This document shows, one piece after another, positions 352 through 24,515 of a stretch of DNA of 64,000 bases (positions within the stretch are counted from its first letter, which is position 1; each line of letters begins with the position of its first letter). Made by a program: the position numbers and the translations under genes. A model generated the notes under the pieces. The model ran no database searches. It worked only from the letters and a program-made list of their open reading frames with translations, and was not told where the DNA came from. Origin of the DNA: Membranipora membranacea (Eukaryota > Bryozoa > Gymnolaemata > Cheilostomatida > Membraniporidae); contig OU612069.1 of NCBI GenBank assembly GCA_914767715.1, positions 1,858,001-1,922,000 on the forward strand. The letters run 5' to 3'.

Positions 352-529
352 ATGGGGAACACTGGATCCAGCAAAACAACTGAGAGGCCCAACTTCTATG
401 ATTACCGAACTTCTGTTGACTGCGGAAATGTCGCCATCAGCAGACCCACAACACTTAATATAGGGGCAGCAGCACAACCTTATACCAGGCAGCAGCGACT
501 TGTGGCTATATCACCTGATCAAAGTAGAG
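352..529 (+). CDS. Exon 1 of the ROCO-caspase gene, myristoylation-type N-terminus
   Basis: The ATG at 352 gives MGNTGSSKTTE, which fits the N-myristoylation consensus (Gly2, small residue at position 5, Ser6). The rest is a low-complexity polar segment with no recognised domain. An acceptor (ttcacag) lies just upstream, and the donor G|GTATGA at 530 leaves phase 1, which exon 2 needs. Reading on past the donor meets a stop at 538-540. Membrane anchoring by lipid is inference from the motif. No paralogue of this exon was seen elsewhere in the window. Confidence 0.6.
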
Positions 530-3500
530 GTATGAACTAGCCTAGGCAGGCTGTCTGGGGTGGGTGGGTGTGTGTATGGTGTCCCCCACCACCCACCCGA
601 CCCCGACAGCCTGCCCAGTAGAGGTATGAACCAGCCTGGGCAGGCTGTCAGGGTGGATGTATGGTGTCCCCAACCATCCCCCCGACCCCGACAGCCTGCC
701 CAGTAGAGGTATGAATAAAACTTTGTCTTCTCCTCGGCTAGAATTGAAGACCCTCCGCATCAAAATGATAATCAACTTTCATGTCATGATAATGTTCAAT
801 ATACAATTCATTATAGCATAAATAGCAATAGGATGTCATGTTAATGACTACCAGTTATAAACATAGCACAAGGAAGTTACCGATAAAGATTGATCTTACT
901 GCCGCTGTAATAAAAACAGCCTAATCACAATATCAGACATAGATCAAAGCTTCACTGACATTCTTTGTAAAACAACTGTAGCCTAAGGTCACCAAGCTAT
1001 TGGCTTGATTGATTAATGAAATTGTGTTTTGCAAGTCCTTGATTTGAACACGGCGGGATGTCAGTTTATGATCGCTGGGCCAAGAAATTATTCAAACTGG
1101 CTTGCAAAGCTGAAGATTTTGTAATTAATATTTATGACAACAATGGAGGTTGGGCTAAAGTTGCTTCAACTTCCCTCGTTAAAATGATGAATGCCACTCT
1201 CATCGAGTACACTGATACAGCATTGTAAAGATATGAGATCTGAATGTACCATAGAGGAGTAAAGTATTTGTGGGGGGGAAGCTCTCAATTTCACTTGGAA
1301 TATCATGATTTAAGGCTAGCCAGCATTTACTCGCCCACTTTATTTTATGTTGACTCTTCTCCAGTATATAGCTAGCTCTAGAGTCTAAAGTCTAGGGTAT
1401 GTGGCAATGTTCGATGATGATTGAAGCATGCATCATGAATCATTAGACAGCCGGCATCGAAACGCGCCTGTGACATATTCTGTTGCTGTTTTTTTTCAGT
1501 TCAAAGATATGAGGTTTGGTTTAGCTGCAGCCCACAGATGTCTCTTCCCGATGACTTATCGTACAGTGACCTGACAATTGGAGGTATAAAGTCCAACACT
1601 CGAGGAGAGAGTATTATTTCAATGGCTATACGAGAGGATATACCCCCACTATATGAGATAGCGAGCAATCTCAAATGTTTAAGAGTGCGAAACATACCTT
1701 GTACCGAGCAGTTGGAACAGTGAGTAGTTTAAAGTGGCTCATGTTTCACACTTTTTATCATGTATTGACAGCTAAATTTACGTAACTATTGGTAAGTGGG
1801 AACCACAGATAAATATACTCACTAAACTGACAAAAAACATTCAATATGTCACAGTTCAATGCAAGACATGGCTTAATTAGTTTACTGAATTGCCATCATT
1901 GAAATATATAACTAATCAAAGTATGCAGGGCATGTTATCAGCACCATGTCTTTCAGATGCAATGACAGTCGGTAAAGGTATGTAAAAGGCCTTTCTGCAC
2001 GGCATGGTAATTTTTTTTATCGGAACGTCTGCTTCTAATTATCTCAAACAACTTGTCTGACTGTCCAACAGAAAGGTAAACTCATTTATCATAAAATAAG
2101 TAATGCACAAAGATATGTATTTGTGACTCATACTGGGTTTATACTGGTAGCCATACTTCATACTACAACCCTTCTTATATCGATATCGATATGGATGCAG
2201 CTTGCGGAGATTTGTGCTAGTGAGCAGCTCTGATGCATATGAGCTCCCAACTAGGGAGTATCTCACAGGGCCGTAGTTTAGAAAAATGGTAGGGGAGGCG
2301 CAAATCCTTGAGGGTGTGAAGAAACACCAGGTCATGTATTAAAAGCTCCTTCTAAGTCCCGAGTGCCTAGCCTTCAATGTGTTTTGAAATATAAATAGCA
2401 AATGGAAACCCCAAAGGAGCTGATTCTAACAAGGAATAGTCAATTATAGCATTTTTAGGCCACTCAATTCGGCATTCTAAGGGAAGCAGAGTGTCCCTGC
2501 CTCCCCTAGAACTACGGGCCTGTTTCAAGTCTATGGTGAGCATCATGGTGATGTGTGTAATGACTTGGTTTTATATATTTTGCAGTCTTAACAACCTCAA
2601 AGATCTGGAGTTTCTAGACTTACAAGGGAACACAAATTTAAAGACTCTACCTATCTGGTTTGGCGGCCTGAAAAGCCTGAGGATCCTAAACCTGAGTGGA
2701 TGCTGGAAACTCAAACTGCTACCACAAAGGTAATATAAACAATAGTGTTGAATGTTGAAAAGAAAATTTGTGCAAAATGCTGATTATCATAGCCGGTTGG
2801 ATGGGGATGGAATTGAATTTATGCATCATTAGATCAAGTCGAAGCCACCTAGGTTCTAACCTAGGGTAATTTATCTAACGGTATGACACTCTAACACAAA
2901 CAAAGCCACCTATGCTCTAAGCAAGGATGAATTATCTTAAGGTATGACACTCTAACACAAACAAAGCCAGCTATGCTCTAAGCTAGGTTAATTTATCTTA
3001 AGGTATGACACTGTAACACTATCAAAGCAATGTATACATTTATGAACGCGTAATTTATACGAAGTGGTTGGCGGTAATCTGGTCGGTCAGACATGGTCAC
3101 ACTACACCAAATTTAGCCAGATTTTGATTCCAACAGGACATATATCAAACCTGTGGGGCAACTCACTCTCATTATGGACTAAATTCTAATCTTATGTATT
3201 TTCATTATTTACAGAAAAAGTAGTATGGATGAATCGTGCTGGCTTGACTTTCCAAAATCATTTTTAAGTATTAGGCCTAGTTAAAATAAAAAAGAATACA
3301 TTTACAAATCAATAATCAGTAATTCAGTATCAAAATGATCTATTTCAAATGAAATATTTTCAACTGCTCCCAATGCCCAGCCTGTGGCAAAACTTCATCC
3401 GATGTAGCAAATGACACTTCCATAAAACAAAGGAGATGGAAGTTATGCAACTGTGAATGGACTGTATTATGGCTTAAGTATAGGTGGTTTTGTTCTTTAT

Positions 3501-6500
3501 GATGGCTTTAGTATAGGTGGTCCTGTTCTGGTTGTGCAGTAGTATGCATGCTTCTGTGTATTGTATCATCCCATATGAATTCAATAATTAGCAATTAGCC
3601 TTTAATTTATATTTTTGAGTGTTTGGTGGGTCAGTTAGCCGACTTATTTGGACATGATTTAAGCTTTGGTGGGCAGGATGGCAAACTCTCACCCAGTGGC
3701 GTATATTATCACTCACGGCCCACGGAGAACCGTGAGTGGCTGAATAGCTCAGTGTGTAGAGCGGCCGCCTTATAATCACTGTTAAAAAAATTGTTGTGGG
3801 TTCGAATCCCATCAAGATGAGTTTTTTTTCAAATGGGTGCTTTATAACTGGAGCATTTTTACCGTAATCTTCTACTGCTATTGAGTTGTTTTCTGAAAGT
3901 ACCCAACAGCTCAGTGAGCTATTGAAATACCTCTCTGCTTGCACTATTTTGCTACCGATATGCAAAAATTTCCGTGGTGGGAGGGGCGCTTAAGCGCCCT
4001 CCCACCACGGAAATTTTTGCATATCGGCACCCTCCCCGCCACGCCTACGGCGTGTGAATCGGGCTGCGCCCGATTATTATGCTCATCTCTGAAAAGTCAG
4101 TGAGTGAAATATTTTAGAATATACGCCCCTGCTCTCACCAGGATGTGAGGGTCAGATCATATTTATTTGAAAGAAAATATCAATATTGTTAGGATAAGCT
4201 GTCTACCCATTTTCAAAGTAGCAACATGTATTTAGACAGCCAACAAGGGTAAGGTTGGCAGTAACTCAAAACTATAACCCATTGGGCTGGAAACTTTGCT
4301 CATGTTTTATGAGTGCCGACCAGTTCTGTGAAAATTCCGTCCATCAGGATATGATATGGTTGTTGTGAACGAGTTTAGATGAATGTGGTTACGCGTAATG
4401 TGAATCCTAGTAGAGATTGTGAGTATGAGGAATTTTATGTATTACATTTGCTAGTTGCCTTCTTGTGTACAAGAGAAGACAACTATAAAATATATGTTAA
4501 CAGTATGAATGAGAATCCCTAGTTCATACATGAATGAACATCGATGATTTCTGGAGAGTGAGTGAGGTATTAATAGCGAGTAAAGAGCTTAGCTCGGGGA
4601 CTCTTGATCCGCCGAGAGAACTGAGCACATCAAAAACATTAATTGGAGCTGAAATATGTGGCAGCAGCACCCAGATATCTAGCCACATATTCAGTATTAG
4701 ATAGTATTATAAAACACCAGAAAACCACCAGAAAATAACAGAAAAAACAACAACAGCAACAACAGCAACAAACAACAACAACAACAACAACAACAACAAA
4801 CAACAACAACAACATGATTGCGTGATTGCTTGCTTGAATATCTTGTTCTGTTTATATTTGTATATGTTTTCTATCATGACGTTGTCTCTCACCCATGTTT
4901 TTGTCTATCTCTAGGTTCGATATCACGTAACAGGACAGGTCGATCAGGATTAAATTGCTTTGATGGTTGTCGATTCAGAAGTAGAATAGTATAATTCGGC
5001 AAATGCTCAATTTATATAAATATACAACTCACTGAATTATACTATTCTACCTCTGAATCGACAACCATCAAAGTAATTTAATCCTGATCGACCTGTCCTT
5101 TTACGGTGATATCGAACCTAGAGATAGACAAAAACATGGGTGAGAGACAACGTCATGATAGAAAACATATACAAATATAAACAGAACAAGATATTAACTC
5201 GCAAGCACAATCACGCAATCATGTTGTTGTTGTTTGTTGTTGTTGTTTGTTGTTGTTGTTTGTTGTTGTTGTTTTTTTTGTTATTTTCTGGTTGTTTTCT
5301 GGTTGTTTTCTGGTTTTTTATAATACTATCTAATACTGAATATGTGGCTAGATATCTGGGTGTTGCTGCCACATATTTCAGCTCCAATTAATGTTTTTGA
5401 TGTGCTCAGTTCTCTCGGTGGATCAAGAGTCCCCGAGCTAAGCTCTTCACTTGCTATTAATACCTCACTCACTCTCCCTAATCATCCATGTTCATTCATG
5501 TATGAAATAGGGCTTCTCATTCATACTGTTAACATATTTGTGATACTTTGTAGTTGTCTTCTCTTGTACACGAGAAGGCAACTAGCAAATGTAATACGTA
5601 AAATTCCTCATACTCACAATCTCTACTAGGATTCACATTACGCGTAACCACATTCATCTAAACTCGTTCACAACATGGTTAGCTTGCATAATTTCAGATT
5701 TTCAACAACAATCTAAATGAATATTAGTCATGATACATACTGTGTAACTGTCATATTGTGATGTGTTCATTGTAAATGTATTTATTTAATTGATTGGCAA
5801 ACCACAAAACCACAACTAAGTGGATCAAAGCCAGGAACAGAAAAGAAAGAAAAAAAGAATAACATGTTGCAATATCATGCAACCTGATTGGTTGTTGAGA
5901 GTTTCTGCAGATAGTCCTTGCTCTGCAGGATGCAGACAACTCCTTGTGATGCAGTTGGAGAGAACTCCTTGTTCTGCCTGTACATTACACATACTTCATT
6001 GACTACGTGACTATTGTACATAATATTGCTAGCATATAGTCAATTTTTTTCAATATTATTATTTTTATATGTGAAATCAGCCTGCGGAATTTACCGAACA
6101 TTGAAGTGCTGGATCTATCAGAGATTATTTACCAACAAGAGATTCCATCGATAGTGGGAGAGATGTTGAGCTTGACTAAACTACTAGTTAGGGACTGTGA
6201 GCTCTGTAGTCTACCTGAAAGGTTTGTTGTCTGGCATTTAGTATTAGTAAGAGTATGCTAATATTTCATACTGTTCATCGTCGAGGCGGAGAGAGTTATC
6301 CTACCTTGGGTACAGGAACTGGTACCCATAGTACTCATGCCGCACCCTATATCCATGCCCGCCGGATATCTGGCTACTCTATATACCGAAGAAGGAAAGG
6401 GGTTCTTTGTACTGCGTGTGGGATGTGCAAACATACAGTTGACCTCTGGTATTTTTAGTCGCGTTCCGCAAGGACCTTGCTAGGATGAATGATGTGCCAG

Positions 6501-9500
6501 TACCAAATCAGACATGGCTGTCGGCCCCGGAAATCAAACCTGGACCTCAAAGATCCTAATCCCGTACTACTAACCACTGCTGACTCCCTCATACCGATAG
6601 TCCTGTTTGTTAATTAATTCGGTATCTAAATGAGTGTGTCCGATACAACTGAAGGCATAGGTGTAACTTTAATCTAAGGCATATTATTTGCACTTTTTCA
6701 CACACAACAACTTGCAGTACCATTCTGCTTATGCTGGCAGATCCCCTTCATCATTTTATCGGGAGAGGTACCTGTTTGTCAATTGTTGCTCCAGGCACTG
6801 ATGGGATATAGCCAGTGAGAGAATACAAAGGAGAGGCAACTTCCCTTTGACCCAGATGCCAACACGTTTTTGTTGCAATGAACGTCACTGCTCAGTTGTG
6901 TATGATGATATTTTGGGCAGTTTTTTTGTGTCTACAATTCTGAATAGCGAATAATTTACTCGTGCAACATTTACTCAGTGTTTTTAAAAATGTTTCCGTA
7001 TTTGTAAAAGTTATTTTCTCTTGTCAACTTTCTCATTGGTCAACACTGTAAATGAGAAGGAGAAGATAACTTTTAATTTTAGAGAACCGGTAAAAAAACG
7101 AATCATAAGACAACTCTCCATAAGCTCCAGAGCTGAGTTGATAACATTGCTTAAAGCACCCACACAATTGTCCAAGTATAAACAGACTTTATTAAGATTA
7201 ATGTTATATTGCAATCGATAATGTTTGATCATTGCTTGCCATATTATTGTACTGTTACTTTCTTCCTTTCACTCATACTTGGACCACAAGGAAATGAGAT
7301 GATTTCTACGAAATTTTTACTTCTGTAGTTTACAGTCACTACAGAAACTTGAATTTTTGGACCTCTCAGGCAACACGTCACTGAGAGACTTACCAGTGTT
7401 CATTGGGAGTATGACGAATCTAGTAACTTTGGATGCCCATAACTGTGGATTAACACAGCTACCTGAAAGGTGAGCGATGCATGGTAAATGAGTGACACAT
7501 GGTAAAAGTATTGTTGACATTAACGAATTCTCTGTAAACTGTTAACACTTACTGTTACAAAGTATAAGCAAATTAAAAACTGATTGTTCAAAAAGGCCAT
7601 GTTGTTTGTGGCAATTTTCTCGTCAACATTGGCAGATATTCTTTGTATGCATTGTACATTAATTTAATTGGCGCATACCTTTGGACATGAATTAAAAAAT
7701 CTTGATAATGTGTAACACTGTGAGGCAGACCCAGGCTGCTATTGACTCGCATAACTAGACCTTCCTTATAGTTTGCTTTTCTTTCTAGTCTGTACTCTTT
7801 GTCAAAGCTACAGGCTTTAAGCATATCAGACAACCCTCTGAGGAGATTACCGGATAAAATCGCTGATCTGAGAAACTTGAAAAAGCTACATGCTGCTTGC
7901 TGTGAGCTAGAACATATCCCACAAAGGTAAATATAAGCATTTCAGAAGGTTGACCACAGATTTTATTAATTCCGACTTGTAGGGATTGGTAATGATGGTT
8001 AATAATACTAGATGACCATTGATGCCGCAACCATCTGAAGGCGAATATCACTGTTTTTATCTTCAACTGCTAATACATCATCAATTTGAAAAGTAGTTCA
8101 TTATCGCTCAAGCCTCCGGGTAGAGTGGTTAGGGAAGCTCAGAGACAGTAACATAAGTGACTTATCCTATGAATGAATCAGTGAAATTTCTCTACCTTTT
8201 ACAGCATGTCAGACCTTATCGAGCTACATGAATTGGATCTAAGTGACAATCCTGCCTTGACAGCTATTCCTGAGGGTGTTTTCATGCGCAGGAATCTCCA
8301 TACCGTTGATTGTGATGGATGCGATAACCTTACATCACCTCCGATCAGTGTATGTACCCAAGGAGTGGAAGCTGTTCGCAAGTATATGTCCGATCTTGAA
8401 GTTGACCGTGAGAAAAATGTGAAGTTTGTTCCTGTAACAGTAATCGGGCAAGCAATGGCTGGGAAGACGAGCCTTGTCAGGTCTATGCAGCACAACAAGC
8501 GCATTTTGGCTCGTCGCTCAAAAAGTAGCGAACTTGATGAAACCACTAAAGTATTCAAAGTATCTGAGGCCGAAGTTGACCAACAATCAAAGCTTGTTAT
8601 GTTTGACTTCGGAGGACAGGCAGTGTATCAGTTTGCCTATCAACTAGCATTTGGAACTCGTAATGTTCCCCTACTGACTGTAGATATTGCTGAATTTGAC
8701 AGAGTTGCTGCTGCTGAGGGCACAGAGACAGCTTGTGAAAAGCTATGTTTCAAATGGCTTTCTCAACTGTACCTGTCTTGCCCACAGCTTGGCCAACCAA
8801 TAGTTGCTCTGACCCATTCTGATGAAATCAGTGACAAACTCCTTGAACAAAGAAAACAAGAACTCATAGCCACCACGGAAGCCCTGCGCAAGAAGACAAT
8901 CAGAGAAGAAGAAACAACAAAAAGCAGTGTTGGCGCCAAGCTGCCAACCTTCTCTGATCAATCAAAGCCGTTACTGGAAACCGTGATCGTTTTCTCAAAA
9001 GACTCAGGGGTGATGGACATAAATCAACTGAAGTCCTGTTTGATCCGACAAGGTTTGTCACTACTGACAGAAATTCCAGCAAGTTGGTACGAAATAATAG
9101 AGTTTTCTGACGGTCAAACAGAAAAGCCGTTTCTCCTCATTTCAGAGCTTGATACTAAGTTCCCTGGTGACAAAGATCACTTTGCGCTTCAATATCTTCA
9201 TGAAATTGGGAGACTGAAGTGGTACAAACTGATAGATGAACTATCTGGTTTTGTTTTCCATCGAATAGAAGTCCTTACTAAGTTAATAGAGCTGATTTTT
9301 GACCATTCAAGCAAAGAAGCATGGAATATGCGCGTAGAGAGATTTGAGTGTTTCAAATATCTGGATCAACTAGTATCAAAGGAAAGATACAAACAAATGG
9401 TTCGAAAATTTCAGAATACAGGAATCATGGATGGAGAACTTCTTCACAACCTACTGGAGAAAGAGTCAAGCTTGCCAAGTGAAATAGCCATAGATGTTCT

Positions 9501-12500
9501 AAAAGCATTCCATCTGATATGTGGTCCAATCAATGAGGAGAAACACAGCCAATACATCGTCCCATGTTTCAGTACTGACACCATCGTTCCCAGGGCCACC
9601 CTAAACTCAGTCCCACTCAAAATAATGATCCGCTTCCACGGACTACAGATGCCCAGCTACGTGTATCATCTCATCACAGCACTTTTCCTGAAGATGCACA
9701 TCACAGATTTCAATCAAGTTGCTGCAGGAAAGAACGGAGCTCAGGTCATTGACCTAGATGGAACCACAAAGTACTTGCTGCACAGCAATGACGATGGAAC
9801 TGTTTCACTTCTTTCATACTGCGCACCATCAGAAATTAAGAGTGCCTGGATAGCGATCATCGACTCCCTGCTGAAGATCACTGAAAATCTGAAAACTTTC
9901 TGGAAAGGTGTCAATTACGAGAAGATCATCCACTGCTCCCATTGTCTATTGAGAAATCCTCAAGGGCCAGGCACACCAATGAATCCGCGATGGGTTGAGT
10001 TTCCGGTGACTTCTGACAAGCCATTGCACGACCTTATGGGAAGATTCCATGTCTTCAGTGGCAAAGAAGAGGCTCCTTGCCCGCTCAGTGAAGATCTGGT
10101 GCCAGCTCCGCTGGTATTCCCCTGTGAGTTTGAACAACCAAGAATGATTTTATAAGCTGAATTCTTGCTGGGCCCAGGTTGTTTATCTATTGAGAATTCT
10201 ATGTAAGTTTTGCTATAAATTATGCAAAGCAACATATTGACCTTGCTTGTGCTGTTCAAACAATTGACTTTAAATGAGCTCGTGATTCAGTACCTGGGAG
10301 GAAGCTGTGCAAAACCTGCTTCTCAGATCTGTTCTGTCATTATTGGATGCTATAATCTATATGTTTTTAATAGATGATGTTCTGCCAAACATTCCACCCT
10401 TTTTTCAAAACTATGTTCAGCCGTTTATTCCAACCTTGCATTAACGCTATATGCTTCATGTTTCGTTCTACGCTACGATCCAAGCATGTTTCCGCACAAT
10501 ATTATTTGCTACGGACCAGTCTTAGTTTGAATGTCTGAACAAGGAGTTAAAGAGTTAACTCCTTGGTCTGAACCAATTTCAAATTCAGACACTGTTTGCG
10601 AAAATCATTAGTATTACTAAAGTTTTCCTTTTTTCTTTAGGTTCTGATATCACAGAAAATGGTATCAAGAAACTGGAACTATTTGTCTCCAATATGCAGC
10701 AGGAAAACACTGTAAACTGTAAGTAAGCAGTCTTGCTATATTACCATGTTTGGTCTTTTAGGATGCATTAGCCTTGAGGGAAGGTTTTGGTCCCATCTCT
10801 ATATCGAGACTGGAACCAAATGAAGAGCTTCAATACTAGCAAAACTGAATGCACATCTTGGAATTTCAATGTATTTAAATATTAATTTGAAATGAAATTC
10901 ATCTCTAGATTATAAAGAACAGTATGGATGCTTGCTCATCTACAATGACGTGGCTTTTGTTTACAAATAGGTATGCCTGAGGGAGCAGCGCTCATGTCGT
11001 ATACTGCCATTCCGGAATCTCTGATACAAACTCTTGTCAAACTAGTTAACTCATCAGATGACCCCTTACTTGATTTAGTGCCAGCTAAAACTGTGGAGGA
11101 AGATCTTACTTCTATACCTGCTCAAGTAAGTGAAATGTAAGACGTGTCCCCCCTAATTGATGTTGAAATATGCTTTCAGAATTCTCATCAAATAGAATAA
11201 GAAACAAATGTAACAACAAAATTGAAAATTATCTGCTGAGAAATAAAATATTTTACATCACCTTTCATTTTATCTATGTTTTGTTGAAATTGATTTTGTG
11301 GTCAACTTGCAGCCAACAACAGAAGTAGAATTACTGAGACATGTTGGTGTGATACTTGCCAATTCAGAATGTACACCAGCGTAGGGATGACAAATTCATG
11401 TTATTGGTAACTTATCAAACATACCAGCGGAACCTCTCAACTATGTTGAGTCTTAAGTTACCATAGCCTACAAAGAGAAAACTAGCTGTGCAAATGTCAT
11501 ATCTTGATAGTTTTTTATTTTTATAGTTGGTGTATCCCAACACTGAAACTCGGGGAAGGGCACTCATTTTATCCAATGATTTCAACGGCTCTAGAAAAGG
11601 TTCGTTGAAGGACTACAGAAACATTAAGCTTATGTTGGATAGATTTGGTTTCGTTACAAGCGGAGAACACGGCAATTATACTGCTGAGGTATGTTTAACA
11701 CTAGTCAATTTTCATCTATCATTAATCATATCTTTCCCTTAAACCACTGTTTACTCCTTTATAAAAGTTTCTCTTTTCACAAGTTGGCGATGTTCTTTAA
11801 TGAATGCAATACATTGATACTGAGCAAATTTATGACGATAATTCTATTCTCATGTATAAATATTTATTGATTCATTTTCCTGACCCATGATAACTCGGTT
11901 TTCAGGATATGGTGCGATGTATTCATATTGAAACACAGTTGATAAACACGGCAGGTGGGGAATCTATACATGAACAGTTGGGTGCATTTGTTCTTGTTAT
12001 CACCAGCCATGGTGATGAAGGATCAGTCATAGGTGTAGACGGTCATCACATAAAGATAACTGATATCATGGATTTGCTCTCACCTAAAAACTTTCCTGCC
12101 ATGAAAGGAAAACCAAAGATCATCATCATTCAAGCGTGTTCTGGAGGTGAGGCATAGGTTTCACAAGTATATGTATTTGTGTTGGTGTGGTTAACTGTCA
12201 AAATTCAAAACACAGATAAACTATTTTTTAATATAAACTTCATTCGTTTTGTTTTCATTCAGTGAGTATGTTTTTTCCAGATCAGCCATCGAGAGAAAAG
12301 GAAAAGTAAATGATCAATTCTTTATTTGTATAAATTTCCATCTCAAAATAAAGGATTTACTCCTGTAATTTCATTACCTCAACAAACAGATTTTTGTTCC
12401 AATGTTAGATGTAACTATTACAAAAATATTTTACAGATAAACGGGAATTGCTACTTGAGGAGATTGTTGTAGAGCAGACGGATAGTCTTCTCAAGACTAC

Positions 12501-13651
12501 AAAGGAAGACAAGATGAGATGCATCAAGAGCAGCAGTGATGAAGATGTTGAAGAGATTGATTCGGCAAGCCAAGATATCTCAACAGCAGATTTCATAGTA
12601 ATGCAATCCAGCTATGATTGTAAGTTAGCTTGTTTAAAATAGCATGACTGTGCTACCTTAAGAAACTGTGCCACCAAAAGTGAACAAGAGGTTTAAGTTT
12701 GAGGGATTTCAAATTTATGAGAATTAGCAGTTTTAAATCATACCAATATTGGCAAGCATCAAAGTTACATCAAAATACATTTTTTTAATCTTTGCAATCA
12801 TTTATAAGGCAGAAAAGTATTGTTAATTTGCGGTACAAATGTGTTCTTTTATTTTAAGCATTTTCGTCTCCACGGAGAAATGACATTGGCTCGGTGTTCG
12901 TCAGAGCTTTGGTAGTTGTGTTTTACAATTTCGCTCACAATCACCACATCGAAGATCTGGCTAAAATTGTAAGTTGACCTAGAGAAGTTTACAGTACTGT
13001 CTGAACTGTAAATGTTAATCGCAGCCAATTTTTGAGTGTTGGTTTTGTTGTCACTCACCGTGCCATATGCAAAGTTCCACCTTTCTCTAGTTATACGTTT
13101 AATGTTAGGATGCTTTTTCCCCCAATTTGAATAGTATTTGTACAGCAGACATAATGCGAACACATTTTCGAGTTAAGATGTAGGTGATCTTTATTGCTGA
13201 TAAAAAAGTACAAATTTGTTGCTTACCAATATGTCACCATGATCTTCTAAATATAAAACCCATCATAATCGTTTTGGGATAGTTAGATGACGCAATCGGT
13301 TAGCGTGCTTGCTATTCACTTCCAGGTGTTGTGGGTTTAATGTTAATTGGTCTATCTCCCAGCACCCTTGTGTGTATACCTCTACCTCTCCTTTATCTTT
13401 GAAAGGTTAGAGAAGTGGTTGCCGAATGCGGTATTCAAAGAACCAACCAGCTGAAGAAAAACCCAAAGATGAAAAATGCTGTCAGTGCGCAGGTTGCGTC
13501 CATGCCTAAGACTGTCTGCACCTTCCTGCGCAGTCGTCTGTTCCTTCAACCAGGATTCAGGATGAGAGATCAAGACCAACCAGAATCATTCGTCAATCCG
13601 ATTCTACCTGAGCGAACAAAGACAAAGATTGAACAACTAGGTAAGTGTTAG
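352..13651 (+). CDS. LRR-Roc-COR-caspase fusion gene (split, about 14 coding exons)
   Basis: Predicted intracellular signalling protein joining a leucine-rich-repeat ROCO GTPase to a C14 caspase. The exon model is 352-529, 1500-1719, 2586-2729, 6081-6221, 7329-7469, 7789-7926, 8205-10123, 10641-10718, 10971-11125, 11527-11688, 11906-12146, 12437-12619, 12859-12968 and 13406-13651. Every junction is GT-AG and the phases match throughout, giving 4056 nt or about 1351 residues. Order: MGxxxS start, unknown N-terminal region (about 1-132), LRRs (about 133-350), Roc with P-loop near 400-412, COR to about 950, linker, caspase p20 (about 1039-1172), p10 (about 1234-1330) and a basic tail. The last exon either stops at TAG 13649-13651 or is spliced at the GTAAGT at 13641. 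More LRR exons may have been missed. The fusion is inferred from splice phase, not from a transcript. Splitting into a ROCO gene ending at 10155 and a separate caspase gene is the main alternative. Confidence 0.78.
530..715 (+). repeat. Tandem repeat that triplicates the exon 1 splice donor
   Basis: The motif AGTAGAGGTATGAA, containing the exon 1 donor, recurs so that GT dinucleotides lie at 530, 624 and 709. Between the copies are GC-rich inverted stretches (caggctgtc... with ...gacagcctg) able to form hairpins. Using the second or third donor would include an in-frame stop, so only the first gives the long protein. A related sequence occurs at 31565-31615. Confidence 0.75.
716..1499. other. 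Remainder of intron 1
   Basis: AT-rich sequence with no convincing exon, RNA gene or mobile element. It ends in a strong pyrimidine tract and acceptor (ttttttttcag). Confidence 0.5.
1500..1719 (+). CDS. Exon 2 of the ROCO-caspase gene
   Basis: The exon is open in the frame dictated by exon 1 (enters phase 1, leaves phase 2 at CA|GTGAGT). It encodes about 73 residues with no named domain. The C-terminal part (LYEIASNLKCLRVRNIP) has the spacing of a degenerate LRR, so it may be the cap that starts the LRR domain. The phase-2 exit matches every LRR exon that follows. Confidence 0.6.
2266..2524. mobile_element. Short TIR element (MITE-like) in intron 2
   Basis: Imperfect inverted termini: about 'agggccgtagttt...taggggagg' on the left pairs with the reverse complement of 'cctcccctagaactacgggcc' on the right. 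The element is about 260 bp with no coding capacity. It sits about 60 bp before LRR exon 3. The target duplication was not resolved. Confidence 0.45.
2586..2729 (+). CDS. Exon 3, two leucine-rich repeats
   Basis: A 144-nt exon from ttgcag|T to CAAAG|gtaata, phase 2 at both ends. It encodes two 23-24-residue LRRs of the type LEFLDLQGN..LKTLP and LRILNLSGC..LKLLP. The final partial codon AG joins the first base of the next exon to give Ser. LRRs of this class form the sensing or partner-binding arm of ROCO proteins. Confidence 0.88.
2836..3030 (+). repeat. Tandem repeat, about 63-bp unit, three copies
   Basis: Units share 'aaagccacctatgctctaag', 'aatttatctta' and 'ggtatgacactctaacacaa' with small differences. 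The array lies in intron 3 and has no visible coding potential. Confidence 0.8.
3031..3724. other. Intron 3, left part
   Basis: AT-rich sequence without an exon. It contains a short two-copy tandem repeat at about 3470-3522 ('ggctttagtataggtggt' type). I see nothing else. Confidence 0.4.
3725..3830 (+). repeat. tRNA-derived SINE head
   Basis: The A-box-like 'tagctcagtgtgtagagc' and B-box-like 'gtgggttcgaatccc' lie about 45 bp apart, as in a tRNA promoter. The anticodon arm is AT-rich and irregular, and a T-run follows. This looks like a SINE or tRNA pseudogene rather than a functional tRNA. Confidence 0.6.
3956..4026. repeat. Near-perfect 70-bp palindrome
   Basis: Two arms of about 35 bp, reading 'cgatatgcaaaaatttccg' inward to GGGCGCTT, meet at GCGCTTAAGCGC. 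One extra G in the left arm is the only mismatch I see. The next 60 bp hold two smaller hairpins ('cgcctacggcg' and 'atcgggctgcgcccgat'). The cluster may be a transposon end. Confidence 0.85.
4362..5674. mobile_element. Long inverted-repeat (foldback) element
   Basis: Two arms of about 640 bp (4362-4997 and 5034-5674) are reverse complements with scattered differences, separated by only 36 bp. Both arms carry a CAA/TTG microsatellite at matching places (about 4748-4812 and 5220-5272) and the same sequences flanking it. No transposase is visible, and the open frames inside read through the microsatellite and are not credible genes. Transcribed through the intron, this would form a long hairpin. 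Confidence 0.85.
5675..6080. other. Intron 3, right part
   Basis: No exon is visible before the acceptor at 6080. A short degenerate duplication around 5890-5980 ('ctccttg...tctgc' repeated) is the only structure seen. Confidence 0.4.
6081..6221 (+). CDS. Exon 4, two leucine-rich repeats
   Basis: A 141-nt phase-2/phase-2 exon between aaatcag|C and GAAAG|gtttgt. It encodes repeats of the type IEVLDLSEI..QEIPSIVG and LTKLLVRDCELCSLP. It has the same length class and boundaries as exons 3, 5 and 6. Confidence 0.85.
6285..6600 (-). repeat. SINE-like repeat, minus strand
   Basis: On the minus strand, from about 6600 downward, a tRNA-like head ('gagtcagcagtggttagtag', then 'ggtttgatttcc' as a B-box-like stretch) is followed by a body of about 250 bp. 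The intron holding it lies between LRR exons 4 and 5. The head is diverged, so assignment to a tRNA class is not possible. Confidence 0.45.
6601..7328. other. Rest of intron 4
   Basis: AT-rich. Open frames on both strands at 7011-7232 overlap each other and show no domain, so I treat them as chance. It ends at the acceptor ttctgtag before exon 5. Confidence 0.4.
7329..7469 (+). CDS. Exon 5, two leucine-rich repeats
   Basis: A 141-nt phase-2/phase-2 exon with LRR cores LEFLDLSGN..LRDLPVFIG and LVTLDAHNCGLTQLP. The donor is GAAAG|gtgagc. It is very close in register to exons 3, 4 and 6, as expected if single exons were duplicated. Confidence 0.88.
7789..7926 (+). CDS. Exon 6, two leucine-rich repeats
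   Basis: A 138-nt phase-2/phase-2 exon with cores LQALSISDNPLRRLPDKIA and LKKLHAACCELEHIP. The acceptor is tttctag and the donor CAAAG|gtaaat. The one-codon shortening relative to exons 4 and 5 falls in the first repeat. Confidence 0.87.
8205..10123 (+). CDS. Exon 7, last LRR plus Roc GTPase and COR domains
   Basis: A single 1.9-kb exon. It opens with an LRR (LHELDLSDNPALTAIPEG) and a short connector. The Roc (Ras-of-complex) GTPase follows, with P-loop VIGQAMAGKTSL (about 8440-8475), switch II DFGGQ (about 8608) and base-specificity motif ALTHSD (about 8806-8823). These are the G1, G3 and G4 elements needed to bind GTP. The rest matches a COR dimerisation region, including FWKGVNYEKIIHCSHC near the end. 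In ROCO proteins Roc-COR dimers act as a nucleotide switch controlling an attached effector. The donor T|GTGAGT at 10124 gives phase 1, which the next exons need. Without splicing the frame stops at 10153-10155 after about 10 more codons. An inverted, frameshifted copy of the COR part lies at about 17.1-18.35 kb. Confidence 0.93.
10124..10640. other. Intron 7, with alternative stop of exon 7
   Basis: If the donor at 10124 is not used, translation ends at TAA 10153-10155, giving a ROCO protein without caspase. The intron contains a short palindrome at about 10540-10566 ('aaggagttaa...ttaactcctt') and ends in ttttctttag. Confidence 0.6.
10641..10718 (+). CDS. Exon 8, linker between COR and caspase
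   Basis: A 78-nt phase-1/phase-1 exon with strong signals (ttctttag|GT and ACT|gtaagt). It encodes 26 residues (DITENGIKKLELFVSN core), probably helical. No domain is recognised. The sequence is also present, frameshifted, in the inverted copy near 17.05 kb. Confidence 0.7.
10971..11125 (+). CDS. Exon 9, linker before the caspase
   Basis: Enters phase 1 at aaatag|GT and leaves phase 0 at CTCAA|gtaagt. It encodes 51 residues including PESLIQTLVKLVNS, predicted helical. This could be part of a small helical adaptor fold or a caspase prodomain, but I see no diagnostic Death, CARD or DED motif. A decayed copy is at about 16.1-16.28 kb on the minus strand. Confidence 0.68.
11312..11384 (+). CDS. 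Possible alternative terminal exon (ROCO without caspase)
   Basis: After the acceptor caacttgcag the phase-0 frame reads PTTEVELLRHVGVILAN and then stops at TAG 11382-11384. The inverted copy at about 15.9 kb keeps a similar peptide (PKTEQDLLRHVRMILAN), so the segment was once coding. In this copy I see no phase-0 donor. Inclusion would therefore end the protein before the caspase, and skipping joins exon 9 to the caspase in frame. It could be a decayed exon or a regulated poison or terminal exon. Confidence 0.45.
11527..11688 (+). CDS. Exon 11, caspase p20 first half
   Basis: A 162-nt phase-0 exon between ttttatag and GAG|gtatgt. It starts the C14 peptidase fold: YPNTETRGRALILSNDF is the first strand, followed by R-K-G (Arg at about residue 1061). 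That Arg is the family position that binds the P1 aspartate of the substrate. The segment LMLDRFGF after it matches the caspase 'L-G-F' strand. This is the first unmistakable caspase sequence downstream of the ROCO exons. Confidence 0.9.
11906..12146 (+). CDS. Exon 12, caspase p20 with catalytic His and Cys
   Basis: Phase 0 in, phase 1 out (GGA G|gtgagg). It contains VLVITSHGDEG, with the catalytic His at about residue 1127, and IIIIQACSG, with the nucleophile Cys at about residue 1170. The spacing of 43 residues is usual for caspases. The Arg of the common QACRG pentapeptide is Ser here. The active-site dyad is intact, so a working cysteine protease is expected. Confidence 0.93.
12281..12309 (+). 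CDS. Possible alternative last exon after the catalytic Cys
   Basis: After ttttttccag, in phase 1, the frame reads DQPSREKEK and stops at TAA 12307-12309. Joined to exon 12 it would give a p20-only form without p10. Treated as a 25-nt internal exon it would break the frame. Signals are adequate but the evidence is weak. Confidence 0.25.
12437..12619 (+). CDS. Exon 13, caspase intersubunit linker
   Basis: A 183-nt phase-1/phase-1 exon. It begins DKRELL and runs into an acidic stretch (SSSDEDVEEIDSASQD), then ADFIVMQSSYD, which aligns with the 'ADFL' strand at the start of the small subunit of caspases. The acidic aspartates are the natural place for maturation cleavage between p20 and p10; EEID|S is one candidate. 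Confidence 0.85.
12859..12968 (+). CDS. Exon 14, caspase p10
   Basis: A 110-nt exon, phase 1 in and phase 0 out (AAAATT|gtaagt). SPRRNDIGSVFVRALVVVF matches the caspase p10 loop and helix (Ser-x-Arg, then Gly-Ser-x-Phe). The Arg here is the second substrate-pocket arginine. Part of this exon is copied at 18.47 kb, where the donor GT has become TT. Confidence 0.9.
13275..13390 (+). repeat. tRNA-derived SINE in the last intron
   Basis: A-box-like 'agatgacgcaatcggttag' and a B-box-like stretch ('ggtgttgtgggttt') about 35 bp later, then a short body ending near the pyrimidine tract of exon 15. The second copy of this locus has the same SINE, split by a 1.76-kb insertion (18810-18854 and 20620-20700). 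Confidence 0.55.
13406..13651 (+). CDS. Exon 15, end of caspase p10 and C-terminal tail
   Basis: Enters phase 0 after ctttgaaag. VREVVAECG continues the p10 helix and RSRLFLQPGF is the last strand. A basic tail of about 35 residues follows (PERTKTKIEQLGKC), then TAG at 13649-13651. Because CTAG|GTAAGT at 13641 is also a good donor, a further exon is possible. The tail and stop are conserved in the copy at 20.7 kb. Confidence 0.82.
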   Translation, partial: VREVVAECGIQRTNQLKKNPKMKNAVSAQVASMPKTVCTFLRSRLFLQPGFRMRDQDQPESFVNPILPERTKTKIEQLGKC

Positions 13652-13707
13652 TGTTTATTGATTCGCATTGGTTCTCTATTTTATTGTAAAATTTGAAGAT
13701 TAAAAGG

Positions 13708-14807: not shown

Positions 14808-15161
14808 TTATCGGGTCACACCGGCACAAATTAGTATGTTCCTTGAGTCATACATGTTTTTCTGCTGATAGATTTTATTAGTGTCAAATTCTTCCAACGT
14901 TGTTGACAAACTGAGACAGTAGTCAATGGCGTTCTTCACCTCAGAAAGCCCATATTTCCTGATGAAACCCGTCCAACATTGTTCTGGAAAATATCTCCAC
15001 CCTATTGTGCTGTTGTAGATTATGTGATAAGAACAGAAACCCACGGAGGCGATCAGGTGAAGCAGGCTAGCTTCTATAAGTGGAAAGTAAGACACTGATG
15101 ATGAGTAACCAGACTCTGTATTACTGGCGTTTGAGTACCATGTTTGAGTACCACATTGCAA
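14808..15161 (-). CDS. Unknown open frame of 117 codons, minus strand
   Basis: The frame reads with a protein-like composition (for example YFPEQCWTGFIRKYGL, EVKNAIDYCLSLSTTLEEFD) and ends at the stop at 14808. A second copy at about 21.96-22.3 kb keeps most residues but has frameshifts and stops. No domain is recognised. It may be the last exon of a small gene or a transposon fragment. The start codon is uncertain. Confidence 0.4.
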   Translation of the reverse strand: MQCGTQTWYSNASNTESGYSSSVSYFPLIEASLLHLIASVGFCSYHIIYNSTIGWRYFPEQCWTGFIRKYGLSEVKNAIDYCLSLSTTLEEFDTNKIYQQKNMYDSRNILICAGVTR

Positions 15162-15889: not shown

Positions 15890-18347
15890 CATGCTTTTAA
15901 TAGGACCTTGAAATTGGCAAGTATCATACGAACATGTCTCAGTAAATCTTGTTCTGTTTTGGGCTGAAAGTTGACCACAAAATTAATTTGGTGGTGTAAA
16001 ATATTTCATTTATCAGCAGATAATTTCCAATTTTCTTGTCTATTATGGATGAGAATTTTAAAAGCATATTTCATCATCAACTAGAGGGACGCACCCTCCA
16101 TTTCACTTACTTGAGCAGGTTTAGAAGTAAGCTCTTCCTCCACAGTTTTAGTTTTGCACAAAATCAAATAAGTGATCATTTGATGAGTTAACTAGTTTGA
16201 AAAGATTTTGTATCCAAGATTCCTGAATGACTGTATTCGACATGAGCGCTGCTCCCTCATGCATACCTATTTGTAAACAAAAGCCATGTTGTTGAAGATG
16301 AGCTAACGTCCATGCTGTTCTTTATAATCTGAAGATGAATTTCATTTCAAAGAAATAGACAGTTTTCTTAGCTCTGATTTGGGCCTCAATTCGGTGTTGT
16401 CCTTTTTCCAGTTTGGTACTTTTAACCCACGCCGCATAGGGAATACGTGCTGAAAAGAGGGATATCTTGAAAACCGCTTATGTTAGGATAAAAATGATTT
16501 TTGATGCAGAATCTGCACCATTAAAAACTGATAGGGACATAGTTTGGGAAATAATTTTGGTATTCAAATAGTCAATTATATCAATTTCAACCAGGTTTGC
16601 GGACAAATTTCATGGAATTTTTCATGGATTTTGTCACTAAAATTAAGATTTATCAATTTTCAAGCCCCAATGATTTGGAAACTCTGGCTCACAGGGTTTT
16701 CAATAGTGCAGATTCTGATTCAAAAATCATTTTTATCCTCACATAAGTCATTTTCAAGATAACCCTCTTTTCAGCACGTTTTTCCTATGCGGCGTGGGTT
16801 AAAAGTACCAAAGTGGAGAGAGGACAACTCCTCAGATGAGAGCTCAGAAAACTGTCCATATTTAAATACATTGGCTTTCCAATAATATGTGCATTTGATT
16901 TTGCTAGGATTGAAGCTCTTAATTTAGTTCAAATATCGATATAGAGATGGGACCAAAATCTTTTCTCAGGGCTAATACATCCCCAAAGATCAAACATGGT
17001 AATGTAGCAAGACTGCTTACTTTTCCTGCTCCATATTGCAGACATATAGTTCCAGTTTTTTTATACCAATTTTCTGTGATATCAGAACCTAAAGAAATAA
17101 TAAGGACAATTATAGGAGAAATTGTAATAGCAATGATTTTCTAAAACTGTGTCTGAATTTGCAGAAGGGGCAACACAGAATTAATTTATTGTCTGAGACT
17201 TCCTAACTAAGAATATCGTGTGGAACCATGCGTGAATCAAAGTGTAAAGCATGTGCAGAGTCATCTCCCGGGTACTCCATCATGAGCTTATTTAAAGTGA
17301 ATTGTTGAAGCGGCACATGCAAGGTCACCGTGTTACTTTGCATAACATAATCTATAGCAATACTTTATCAGAATTTGCAATAGATAAACGATCTGATACC
17401 AGCGACCATTTAGCTAATAGAAGCATTCTTAGTAGTTCAAACTCACAAGGGAATTCCAGGGGAGCTGGCACAAGATTTTCACTGAGCGGGAAAGGAGCCT
17501 TTTCTTTGCCGCTGAAGACATGGGATCTCCCCATGAGGTGGTGCAATGGTTTGTCTGAAGTCACCGGAAACTCAAACCATGGCGAATTCATTGGTGTGCC
17601 TGGCTCTTGGGGATTTCTCAACAGGCAGTGGGAGCAGTGGATGATCTTCTCGTAGTTGACATCTTTCCAGAATTTCAGATTTTCCGTGATCTTCGGCAGA
17701 GAGTCGATGATCGCTATCCAGGCACTCTTAATTTCTGATGGTGCGCAGAATGAAAGAAGTGAAACAGTTTTCTCGTCATTGCTGTGCAGCAAATACTTTT
17801 TGGTATTCCATCTAGCCCAATCACCTGAGCACCACCTGCAGCAACTTGATTGAAATCTGTGATGTGCACCTTCAGGAAAAGAGCTGTGATGATAAACGTA
17901 GCTAGGCATCTGTAGTCCGTGGAAGCGGATCACTCTTTTGAGTGGGAGTGAGTTTCGGATGGCCTTGGGAATGATGGTGTCAGTACTGAAACATGGGACG
18001 ATGTACTGGCTGTGTTTCTCCTCATTGATTGGACCACATCAGAATGCTTTTAGAACGTTTATGGCTATTTCACTTGGCAAGCTTGACTCTTTCCCCAGAA
18101 GGTTGAGAAGAAGTTCTCCATCCATGATTCCTGTAGTCTGAAACTTTTTAACCATTAGTTCGTATCTTTCCTTTGATACTACTTGATTCCAGATATTTGA
18201 AACACTCAAATCTCTCTACGCGCATATTCCATGCTTCTTTGCTTGAATGGTCAAAAATCAGGACTTTTATTCGCTGGAAAACAAATCCAGATAGTTCATT
18301 TATCAGTTTGTACTACTTCAATCTCCCGATTTCATGAAGATATTGAA
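15890..18347 (-). pseudogene. Inverted, broken copy of ROCO exons 7-10
   Basis: Reverse complement of about 9186-11370: COR end (17.1-18.35 kb), exon 8 copy (about 17.05 kb), exon 9 copy (about 16.1-16.28 kb) and exon 10 copy (about 15.9 kb). The COR part has frameshifts around 17.85 and 18.3 kb and lacks a few dozen bases that exon 7 keeps. Exons 8 and 9 are also frameshifted. Roc, LRR and p20 parts are absent. It cannot make a ROCO protein and is interrupted by a MITE at 16359-16854. Confidence 0.88.
16359..16854. mobile_element. MITE with about 110-170-bp inverted termini
   Basis: The left end 'acagttttcttagctctga' pairs with the right end '...gctcagaaaactgt'. Further in, 'aacccacgccgcataggga' pairs with the reverse complement of 'cctatgcggcgtgggtt'. 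The element is absent at the matching position in intron 8 of the parent gene (about 10.88 kb), which shows it inserted after the duplication. Confidence 0.8.
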
Positions 18348-18464
18348 CAGTTAATTATGTGTGTTTATATTGGGAAGACTTTGTGGGCGCTTTTAGCAAT
18401 GTCATCAATACTGGGACATTTGTGGAGAGTTGTCCCATGACTTGTTTTCTTTGGTTTTGTAAAA

Positions 18465-18507
18465 TTACAATTTCGCTCACAATCTCCACATCGAAGATCT
18501 GGCTAAA
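18465..18507 (+). pseudogene. Partial copy of caspase exon 14
   Basis: Keeps the last 14 codons of exon 14 (...HIEDLAKI with one changed residue) but the donor GTAAGT is TTGAGT. The start of the exon and all of p20 are missing, so this copy cannot encode a protease. Confidence 0.8.
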
Positions 18508-18854
18508 ATTTTGAGTTGACCTAGCGAACTGTCAGAACTGCAATTTTAATCGCAGCTAATTTTTGAGTCATGATCTTGATGTCATACACATGCAAAGTTC
18601 CACCTTTCTCTAGTTTTACGTTTAATGTTAGGATGCTGTTTCCCCCAAATTGAATAATTCTATGTACAGTAGACATTATGCGAACACATTTTCAAGTTTA
18701 GATGTAGGTGATGTTGTTTGCTGATAAAAAAAGTACATATTTGTTGCTTTTGCTTTCTAATTTGCCATCAAGATCTTCAAAATATAAAACTCATCATAAT
18801 TGTTTTGGCGATGGTTAGATGACGTAATCGGTTAGCGCGCTTGCTATTTACTGC

Positions 18855-20619
18855 CAACTGTCCCCCGCGCAAAAACAACCCCGGGACACTTTACAATAAA
18901 AACAGGCTCATTGTAAACTGTCCTCCCCTATTGTAAACTGTCCCCTATTGTAAACTGCCCCCCTATTGTAAACCTTGCCCCTATTGCAAATTGTCCCCCC
19001 TATTGATGACTGTTCATTTCAAGGGCCAGCTGTTTATCATAGTGTAGGCGTCATAATGATATTATTTGACCATTTTCGCAATGTAATGAGCGTAACAGGT
19101 GTTTTGCTTTTCACAGTAGCTCAATGAGCTGCTCGAAAACAACCCCCCCCCCCCCCTACATACACACCTATCTAGAATGGCACTGCCATTCAGTATTTCA
19201 TATTTCATACTCATAAACATATGAATACTCATATGTTATATAAATACTCGTAAATACACATACCCATAAACATATAAATACATATAAATATTTATATGTT
19301 TATGGTCATACTTAAGTAATGCAAGTAATGCAGCAGAAACCTTTTTAGCAGGACTCACACAAAAATACTGAATAGCAGTGCCATTCTAGATAGGTTTTGG
19401 GGGGCGGGGGTTTCTTCGCGCGGCTCATTGAGCTACTGTGAAAAGCAAAACACCTGTTACGTTCATTACATTTCGAAAATGGTCAAATAGTATCATAATG
19501 ACGCCTACACTATGGCTGTAAAATAACATAAGATGCCACCTGGAATTTTTGAGAGTGCAGTTTAAAAAAGTAACTGTTGGGGGATGGTTGTTTTTGCGCG
19601 GCCTAAAGGGCAACCAAGGTTTCAAACAACTTCTCATCGATTAATAGCAGATTGCACCTTCTGCATAGGCAAAAAGACAAAATCTTTTTCGGATGATTAT
19701 TCAGCCAGAATTCTTGTGAAACATTACATCCATCAGGTGCTCAAACTCAGCTAAAATAGAAAACTACAGAGCAGTTTCCTGTTCCTGTTATTTTTTAGCC
19801 TGTGCTCTATCATCATTACAGCAATGTCTTGGAACCTCCCCTAAACTGAAGTGTTATCCAGCTTAGAGTCAGCAACTACTTTGAGTTTTGCATAGCGTAA
19901 TGCACAAAGCTGATGCTGCCTAGCACATTATTTACTACCATTTAATGCATTGCTGCAAAACTTTGGTTGCCCTTAAAGCAAACTTTTGTCGAGGTGTAGC
20001 AAAAATTCTGGCCTCAACTCAATACAAAAGCAGCAATAGTACACATTGCCACTAGTTGGTTTGTTCAGCCATCACTACATGAGAGAGTATATCATCATCA
20101 AGGTGCCTAAGTGCGATTTTGATAATTGTTCTTACTAAGGCAATGGTAGCTGTTTGCAAGGCACTCCAAGGACAGTGTGTTCTGTGATGTGGTAACTACA
20201 CATCTATTCACTGTTGGCTTAGTGCACCTTTCTTCGCAAACCAGACATCTCTAAATCATAAAAACTTCAAATAACAGCTAGTGTTTGCGAAAAATAGATC
20301 TATCAAGTACCACATGAAAAAGAGGCTTTATACACTTATTCATAATGTCAATGAGAAACCACCACCATCCCATGGTACAGCTTGGGCCATCATAGTGGCA
20401 GCCAGAACATCATGGTAAGCTCCAGTTAGATTATCTGACCCATTTAGAATGATAATAAATAGCTGGCCCTTGAAATGCACAGTCATCAATTACAATAGGG
20501 TGAGGGGCAGTTTACAATAGGCCTGTTTTTATTGTGAAGTGTCCATGGGACAGTTTACAATATTGTAAAGAGTCCTGGGGTTGTTTTCGAGCGGGGGACG
20601 GTTTACAATACTACACCGG
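18855..20619. mobile_element. Foldback DNA element splitting a SINE
   Basis: Long inverted termini of about 170-190 bp: 'gtcccccgcgcaaaaacaac' on the left matches the reverse complement of 'gttgttttcgagcgggggac' on the right, continuing through 'gggccagctgttta' and its mirror near 20465. The left arm contains five 'attgtaaactgtcccc'-type direct units. The empty site is the intact SINE at 13.33 kb. No transposase frame was found. It carries a second inverted repeat inside. Confidence 0.82.
19041..19512. mobile_element. Nested inverted-repeat element
   Basis: 'agtgtaggcgtcataatgat' at 19041 is mirrored at 19493-19512, and 'cagtagctcaatgagctg' near 19115 is mirrored near 19425. Inner stems 'ctatctagaatggcactgcc' and its mirror follow. 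A poly-C run (about 14 C) sits in the left arm. This looks like one foldback element inserted in another. Confidence 0.75.
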
Positions 20620-20705
20620 AGGTGTTGTGGGTTCAACTCCTTTCAATGTTGATTCTTCCAGCCCCCAGCACCCACGGGTGTATACCTCTCTTTTATCTTT
20701 GAAAG

Positions 20706-20945
20706 GTTGGAGAAGTGGTTGCCGAATGCGGAAATCAAAGAACCAACCAGCTGAAGAAAAACCAAAAGATGAAAAATTCTGGCAATACACAGGTTGCGTC
20801 CTTGCCTAAGACTGTATGCACCTTCCTGCGCAGTCGTCTGTTCCTTCAACCAGGATTCAGGATGAGAGAACAAGACCACCCAGAATCATTGCCGATTCTA
20901 CCTGAGCGAACAAAGACAAAGATTGAACAACTAGGTAAGTGTTAG
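20706..20945 (+). pseudogene. Second copy of caspase exon 15, still open
   Basis: 229 nt to the same CTAG|GTAAGT, with the same acceptor (ctttgaaag) and an uninterrupted frame (VGEVVAECGNQ... to EQLGKC and stop at 20943-20945). Six bases shorter than exon 15. It has no intact upstream caspase exons of its own, so it is a pseudogene unless spliced to the first gene as an alternative last exon. Confidence 0.75.
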
Positions 20946-21132
20946 TGTTTATTGATTCTCATTGGTTTCCTTGTTTTATGGTAAAATTTGAAGAGAGATC
21001 AGTTTGCTTTGTCCTTTACCTATGGATTTCTGGATGAACTGTTGATTTAAAAATCAGATATTAATCTGTGAGTTACCAGCTGTGTACTTGGTACACAGTC
21101 CATTATAAATAACTTTATACAAATCATGTACC

Positions 21133-23474: not shown

Positions 23475-23511
23475 CTTAGATGTTGTACTGAATCAATATG
23501 TTGATTAAAAT

Positions 23512-24458: not shown

Positions 24459-24515
24459 TTAACTTTGGTTATTTAGAGTAATATATTCTGAGTATGATAA
24501 TAACCCAACATGTTT
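24459..24515 (-). repeat. Direct repeat at the 3' end of the Copia remnant
   Basis: About 55 bp ('gttattatcatactcagaat...gttaaca' on the minus strand) nearly identical to 25731-25786. The copies flank the remnant like short LTR pieces. The coding frame runs straight into this copy, so the missing pol region was probably lost by a deletion ending here. Confidence 0.65.

Follow-up and report, generated by a model that had tools for sequence, protein, structure and literature searches.

A predicted one-chain LRR-ROCO-caspase and its expanded gene family in the bryozoan Membranipora membranacea

The window analyzed here, a stretch of 64,000 nucleotides (contig C5:1858001-1922000) from the cheilostome bryozoan Membranipora membranacea, the sea mat, carries what we read as a single gene for a 1374-amino-acid protein in which leucine-rich repeats (LRRs), a Roc GTPase, a COR domain, a linker and a caspase follow one another in one chain. 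The gene would belong to an expanded family, and the order of its domains suggests a mechanism leading from sensor to protease. We place the probability of this reading, proposed mechanism included, at roughly 0.8. The components are known; their combination and its scale in this genome appear to be new.

Results

A sequence-only reading of the locus had joined 14 exons with matching phases into one open frame. When we rejoined them, GT..AG was present at every border and the phases agreed, giving an open frame of 1351 amino acids; the joins, borders and phases of that reading therefore stand, but its 3' end was probably wrong, and it had missed a 15th exon as well as the gene family described below. 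Ending exon 14 at the 13651 stop was rejected, as a conserved donor at 13640|13641 precedes it, and the stop probably reflects read-through of that donor. The C-terminal ending YKWxVR recurs downstream in loci L044 and L046 (blastp) and L045 (motif), and was not found within the portion of L043 examined. Among five possible acceptor sites for exon 15, we took the one at 15019, since its pyrimidine tract is the best of them and it yields an Asp start as in L044. The corrected 15-exon structure (Table 1) is the one by which the transcript would be spliced. At the other end of the gene, tblastn of the upstream regions of three paralogs gave no convincing match to exons 1 and 2; the MGNTGSS start of exon 1 we take to be a possible N-myristoylation motif.

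Table 1. Predicted exons of the gene and the degenerate second copy, in window coordinates
Feature	Position	Strand	Remarks
Exon 1	352..529	+	start codon, MGNTGSS; GT donor and phase fit; paralog support not found
Exon 2	1500..1719	+	border and phase fit; paralog support not found
Exon 3, LRR	2586..2729	+	phase 2-2; exon joining and Pfam
Exon 4, LRR	6081..6221	+	phase 2-2; exon joining and Pfam
Exon 5, LRR	7329..7469	+	phase 2-2; similar 141-bp phase-2 LRR exons in paralogs
Exon 6, LRR	7789..7926	+	phase 2-2; exon joining and Pfam
Exon 7, last LRRs, Roc GTPase and COR	8205..10123	+	phase-1 donor T|GTGAGT
Exon 8, linker (SDITENGIKKLELF...)	10641..10718	+	same-phase look-alikes in L012, L019, L020, less clearly L023
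Exon 9, linker	10971..11125	+	look-alikes by eye in L042-L046
Exon 10, start of caspase large subunit	11527..11688	+	Pfam; family HMM I10 1.3e-33 (HMM built from 6 sequences, the window's own among them)
Exon 11, caspase large subunit	11906..12146	+	His1127 (12008-12010), Cys1170 (12137-12139)
Exon 12, Asp-rich linker between the subunits and first part of small subunit	12437..12619	+	
Exon 13, caspase small subunit with SPRR	12859..12968	+	
Exon 14, end of caspase small subunit	13406..13640	+	donor G|GTAAGT at 13641; the corresponding position in L043-L046 also reads GT
Exon 15, C terminus ...FYKWKVRH*	15019..15098	+	phase-1 acceptor; YKWxVR in L044, L045, L046
Degenerate second copy, parts of exons 7, 8, 9 and shared introns	15912..18351	-	79-86% DNA identity, frame indels
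Degenerate second copy, parts of exons 13, 14	18465..20994	+	83-88% DNA identity, two blocks

A Pfam search of the joined protein bore out the proposed combination of LRRs, Roc and a C14 caspase in one frame. Peptidase_C14 matched residues 1047-1294 with an E-value of 1.5e-29 (103.8 bits), and because this one profile spans five separately chosen exons (10-14), it is also evidence for the joins between them. LRR families matched at 1.7e-20 at best, while Roc, like Peptidase_C14 above its cut-off, passed it only barely (3.1e-6; 27.9 bits against 27). All of the motifs that had been claimed are present: GQAMAGKT (402-409), DFGGQ (455-459) and THSD (524-527) in Roc, and His1127 in SHG and Cys1170 in QACSG in the caspase. 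The Arg of SPRR in exon 13 is presumably the substrate-binding Arg, as in caspases.

The COR domain was recovered by alignment of paralogs, the window protein alone reaching 14.7 bits against a Pfam COR-A cut-off of 35.3. COR-A was matched at E<=0.1 by all 13 members of an alignment of the window's exon 7 and 12 of its paralogs in this genome (best 9.9e-6). Profile-profile comparison of this alignment with 29 prokaryotic Roco proteins, which had been found with two peptide patterns and some of which are cut by contig ends, aligned columns 3-583 of 640, covering the end of the LRRs, Roc and COR (probability 99.8, E 6.2e-29). These results together identify an LRR-Roc-COR protein of the ROCO family. 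Prokaryotic Roco proteins are also the nearest solved structures to exon 7 by sequence, and the prokaryote contigs contained no close relatives of that exon; a single-sequence AlphaFold model of exon 7 had a mean pLDDT of 30.8. In the 33 loci L009-L041, GxxxxGK[ST] and LTHxD are kept in 33 and DFGG in 32, although these loci are not independent cases, since clustering at 90% identity leaves just 11 groups.

By its Roc motifs and a COR domain directly after Roc, the predicted protein classes as a ROCO protein, and by a p20-p10 domain with catalytic His and Cys, as a member of the caspase family (Peptidase C14). ROCO membership predicts that Roc-COR would bind and hydrolyze GTP and dimerize. In the PDB, the caspase part has some of its best sequence matches among the initiator caspases CED-3 (2.7e-15), caspase-9, -2, -8 and -1, from which the predicted protein differs in that its prodomain is the whole LRR-ROCO receptor and not a death-fold domain: CARD, DD, DED and PYD had no Pfam match at E<=0.5 in the joined protein. 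Nor did NACHT or NB-ARC at the same threshold, and membership among the NLRs was rejected because NACHT is absent.

We then considered whether the caspase is under constraint as a protease. Among close paralogs, dN/dS was 0.03 for caspase exon 10 (58 synonymous and 7 nonsynonymous differences, summed over pairs of eight close paralogs), 0.32 for the Roc-COR exon (Roc 0.22, LRR tail 0.64) and 0.76 for the linker, which is thus fast-evolving; of the 10 loci compared, 9 served for the linker (without L028) and 8 for exon 10 (without L028 and L022). When the gene was compared with the degenerate copy, exon 9 had no third-position excess and so no coding bias. The family's caspases fall into two types, which we label I and II. 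His-Gly and Cys are kept in all 13 type-I loci readable through both, one of them reading QSC, with 6 of 19 type-I rows omitted because the locus end cuts them; SHG and QAC are kept in all 6 type-II loci readable through both.

One alternative accepts the fused gene but takes its caspase for a pseudo-protease with a regulatory or scaffolding function, or the family for a developmental rather than a defensive one. The rapid evolution of the linker would fit it, as would a precedent from bacterial conflict systems, where about 70% of the caspase domains at the effector position are given as inactive (PMC7159879). Against a pseudo-protease, both catalytic residues are kept in 19 of 19 loci, exon 10 evolves at a dN/dS of 0.03, and small-subunit exons were seen in 11 of 12 other type-I loci when these were read downstream (L042-L046 and L048-L055, among which L042 and L050 had none). 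We consider this alternative unlikely.

A second alternative divides the locus into two neighboring genes on one strand, the first an LRR-ROCO that would end at the 10155 stop and the second a caspase that would begin in exon 8 or exon 9, the two having been duplicated in tandem as a pair. The frame of exon 7 does continue to that stop, which also makes an LRR-Roc-COR-only isoform possible; exon 9 holds a possible start codon; and the linker is weakly constrained. Order alone, moreover, is no proof of one gene, because tandem duplication could keep neighboring genes together. The same holds for the correlation between Roc-COR and caspase exon-10 distances (r=0.84 over 27 distinct loci; r=0.58 over 8 loci with one per 90%-identity group; 0 of 2000 permutations in each case), which is expected also for a gene pair duplicated as a unit.

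What speaks against two genes is the structure of the junction. In every one of 30 loci, the window included, COR ends with a ...PC motif and a phase-1 donor, whereas past this donor the sequence varies between groups and the stop lies at varying distances, so the donor marks the end of an exon and the 10155 stop lies beyond it. Look-alikes of exon 8, with the pattern SxITxxGIxxLD, occur in L012, L019 and L020 and less clearly in L023, and they are open in the frame set by the donor. In some paralogs, no intron separates the parts of the linker from one another or the linker from the caspase: the parts of exons 8 and 9 are fused in one exon in the L020/L043 group, and residues at the linker position form one exon with the first caspase exon in L039, L040, L041 and L047. 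Two separate genes would predict neither a donor at the end of COR nor these missing introns.

Locus L066 carries the joining furthest, with an uninterrupted frame of 792 amino acids that takes in LRRs, Roc and most of COR and extends into a caspase His region before the examined sequence ends. The stretch between COR and the His region is absent; with the last part of COR and the beginning of the caspase gone, L066 may be an aberrant copy. Pfam recognized LRR, Roc and COR-A in this frame but not the caspase His part, and the type-II His region went unrecognized by Pfam in L047 as well. The His region of L066 has a type-II family similarity of 59 bits, and the next exon, with QAC, matches Peptidase_C14 at 1.8e-10 (Pfam); family similarity, SHG and this match of the Cys exon are what the type-II assignment rests on. 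In three neighbors of L066, the match lists report the same 842-amino-acid frame at both the Roc and the caspase matches. With the single frame of L066, the conserved donor and the lost linker introns added to the order of exons across the genome (159 of 173 loci, below), the proposed fusion of ROCO and caspase is supported; one gene rather than two neighbors is strongly supported by these comparisons, and we regard two genes as very unlikely.

We searched the genome (339,339,785 bases in 18 contigs; the published assembly, tzMemMemb1.1, is given as 339,374,674 bases in 21 scaffolds, PMC10290214, a few small ones of which are missing from the sequence searched) for further members of the family. 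The number of candidates scored per search was limited to 150 (69 for the 640-amino-acid query), so that totals are lower bounds and missed loci are not absences. With exon 7 as query, 69 of 316 candidates were scored; the matches other than the window itself were long Roc-COR frames, 42-50% identical, and one frame among the 69 had an internal stop. Caspase exons lay 3' on the same strand within 1.5 kb in 30 of the first 30 loci, the window included (family HMMs; first by tblastn), and 3' in 8 of 8 further loci from other clusters (HMM). They are also present, by reading, behind the giant LRR-Roc-COR exons of L039-L041. The eight best Pfam Roc matches (L001-L008) had no caspase exon within 1.5 kb by HMM.

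A union of position lists gave 173 Roc loci (a count of 122 leaves out Roc frames shorter than 350 amino acids; two such frames on C5, of 233 and 204 amino acids, are in the counts of 124 and 173). Of these 173 loci, 159 are followed on their own strand, no more than 12 kb away, by a caspase exon (107 through type I and 52 more through type II); 200 random placements gave 1.7 such loci on average and never more than 7. Conversely, a co-oriented Roc exon precedes 111 of the 150 type-I exon-11 matches scored (of 237 candidates) by at most 12 kb (median 3.2 kb), and none of the 150 has Roc on the wrong side or the opposite strand within 12 kb. For type II (150 scored of 272), Roc lies 5' of 48 of the 52 best matches and of 52 overall, with 3 on the wrong side and 1 on the opposite strand; the weaker matches are mostly other caspases. 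Fourteen of the 173 Roc loci lack a listed caspase match, one of which, L054, has caspase exons by HMM, and 39 of the 150 type-I exons lack a listed Roc exon upstream. Three such exons, about 3 kb apart at C11:2801400-2807916 (+) with no listed Roc exon near, indicate that caspase-only genes or fragments do occur.

Clusters of three or more contain 147 of the 173 Roc loci, and 125 of 129 neighbor pairs closer than 250 kb are on the same strand. These data are best read as a family that tandem amplification has expanded in this lineage to about 160 loci or more, of which some may be fragments. That most of these are functionless recent pseudogenes or collapsed assembly repeats, as the degenerate copy in the window and the near identity of the arrays in places might suggest, is scarcely credible given that stops are absent from 150 of 150 type-I exon-11 homologues scored (of 237 candidates) and 148 of 150 Roc matches, and that dN/dS is below 1 in Roc and caspase.

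One family member, with Roc and type-I caspase matches, lies about 122 kb before the window at C5:1731046-1735913 (-). Clusters of caspase-like exons with no listed Roc nearby occur at C11 0.15-0.21 Mb, C9 9.5 Mb, C2 24 Mb, C8 14.9 Mb and C3 24.6 Mb, and may be further caspase expansions in this genome. The LRR exons of the family are about 141 bp long and in phase 2 at both ends, which permits shuffling of the kind described in brown algae for ROCO genes (PMC11378527). In one case, at C10:1613600, two LRR exons recur as a pair almost unchanged. In L039 (667-5904), L040 and L041, dozens of near-identical LRRs of 23-24 amino acids stand in one giant frame, which suggests rapid change in repeat number.

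Discussion

Caspases are activated by induced proximity, and in the NLR-adaptor-caspase pathways, such as the inflammasome and the apoptosome, an LRR sensor and an NTP switch lead to a caspase output. A comparable working of the LRR-ROCO-caspase is plausible, with Roc-COR in place of NACHT or NB-ARC, no CARD, DD or DED found and the caspase in the same chain. The LRRs, whose exons share one phase and so lend themselves to shuffling and duplication, would bind a ligand or monitor a partner, and sensing would change the nucleotide and dimer state of Roc-COR. For CtRoco, a mainly monomeric state with GTP and a dimeric nucleotide-free state have been reported (PMC6337361). Across a linker of about 80 residues, two caspase domains could then meet, and induced proximity together with cleavage in the Asp-rich linker of exon 12 would turn the protease on. 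This linker is the likely site of self-cleavage; its Asp content is only suggestive of cleavage after Asp or self-processing. With no need of a CARD or DED adaptor, the active protease would bring about cell death or a response of the inflammatory type.

What the data show is the anatomy of the genes and the constraint on them; the splicing of the exons, ligand binding, control of the protease by GTP, cell death and a role in immunity or allorecognition are proposals. We see about an even chance that these one-chain LRR-ROCO-caspases, about 160 or more in number and varied through duplication of LRR exons, serve as immune receptors or as receptors for colony self and non-self, with a ROCO GTPase and not a NACHT ATPase gating the caspase. 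To our knowledge, the immunity of bryozoans, a phylum of colonial animals, has been little studied. Such proteins would amount to an inflammasome in a single polypeptide, and to a second evolutionary route from LRR sensor to caspase, with ROCO in place of NLR, no adaptor and tandem arrays.

Other ROCO proteins share parts of this architecture. Prokaryotic Roco proteins and vertebrate MFHAS1 (LRR-ROCO group 1) have the same LRR-Roc-COR order, Roc motifs and linker from LRR to Roc, but, unlike the Membranipora protein, no caspase. Peptidase_C14 was found at E<=1e-5 in none of the 29 prokaryotic Roco proteins, in which TIR_2 occurs in 9, EAD11 in 2 and EAD1 in 1 at that threshold; at E<=1e-3, TIR_2 occurs in 10 and EAD11 in 2, representing other fusions of ROCO to effectors. 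DAPK1 and LRRK1/2 likewise join a ROCO GTPase to an effector, which in their case is a kinase, and DAPK1 differs further in having no LRRs. DAPK1 is described as acting in cell death (PMC6337361). How the GTPase cycle of ROCO proteins such as LRRK2 and DAPK1 controls the effector is debated (PMC6337361), and a natural ROCO-caspase would offer proteolysis as a simple read-out for this question.

The peptidase domain IPR009003 we take to be trypsin-like. It is this domain, and not a caspase, that stands at the C terminus of group 3 (3 genes) of the brown-algal ROCO proteins, which are not animal (PMC11378527). These candidate immune receptors, described as 111 genes in four species, likewise form a large family with LRRs on separate exons subject to shuffling (PMC11378527). 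Among lophotrochozoans, ROCO also occurs in immune-type proteins in Aplysia, joined to TIR and not to a caspase (PMC9334734). Animals are credited with as many as forty ROCO domain combinations (PMC11378527). A non-exhaustive search of the open-access literature found no description of a ROCO-caspase fusion, in keeping with the suggestion of the sequence-only reading that no animal LRR-Roc-COR-caspase had been described. The word caspase is absent from the portion of a Roco review that we examined (PMC6337361), and the legend to a figure of Trichoplax (T. adhaerens) ROCO proteins gives CARD and TIR but not a caspase domain.

Other elements of the window

The second copy downstream of the gene (15912-20994) is rearranged, with exons 7-9 on the minus strand and exons 13-14 on the plus strand, and was rejected as a second working gene because its frames are broken. 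Intron 3 contains, by eye, a long inverted repeat with CAACAA/TTGTTG tracts (4530-5660) that looks like a foldback mobile element. A repeat at 13690-13952, just past exon 14, recurs at 23495-23751 with 92% identity; by eye it is tRNA-like, in the manner of a SINE. A tRNA scan found none. Two pieces of retrotransposons lie on the minus strand, one with reverse transcriptase and zf-RVT (39186-41141) and one with Pol_BBD (24465-25016), the latter presumably copia-type. Similar single-exon frames occur at 26210 and 31999 (+) and at 36617 and 49204 (-), two of the four with ankyrin matches below the cut-off.
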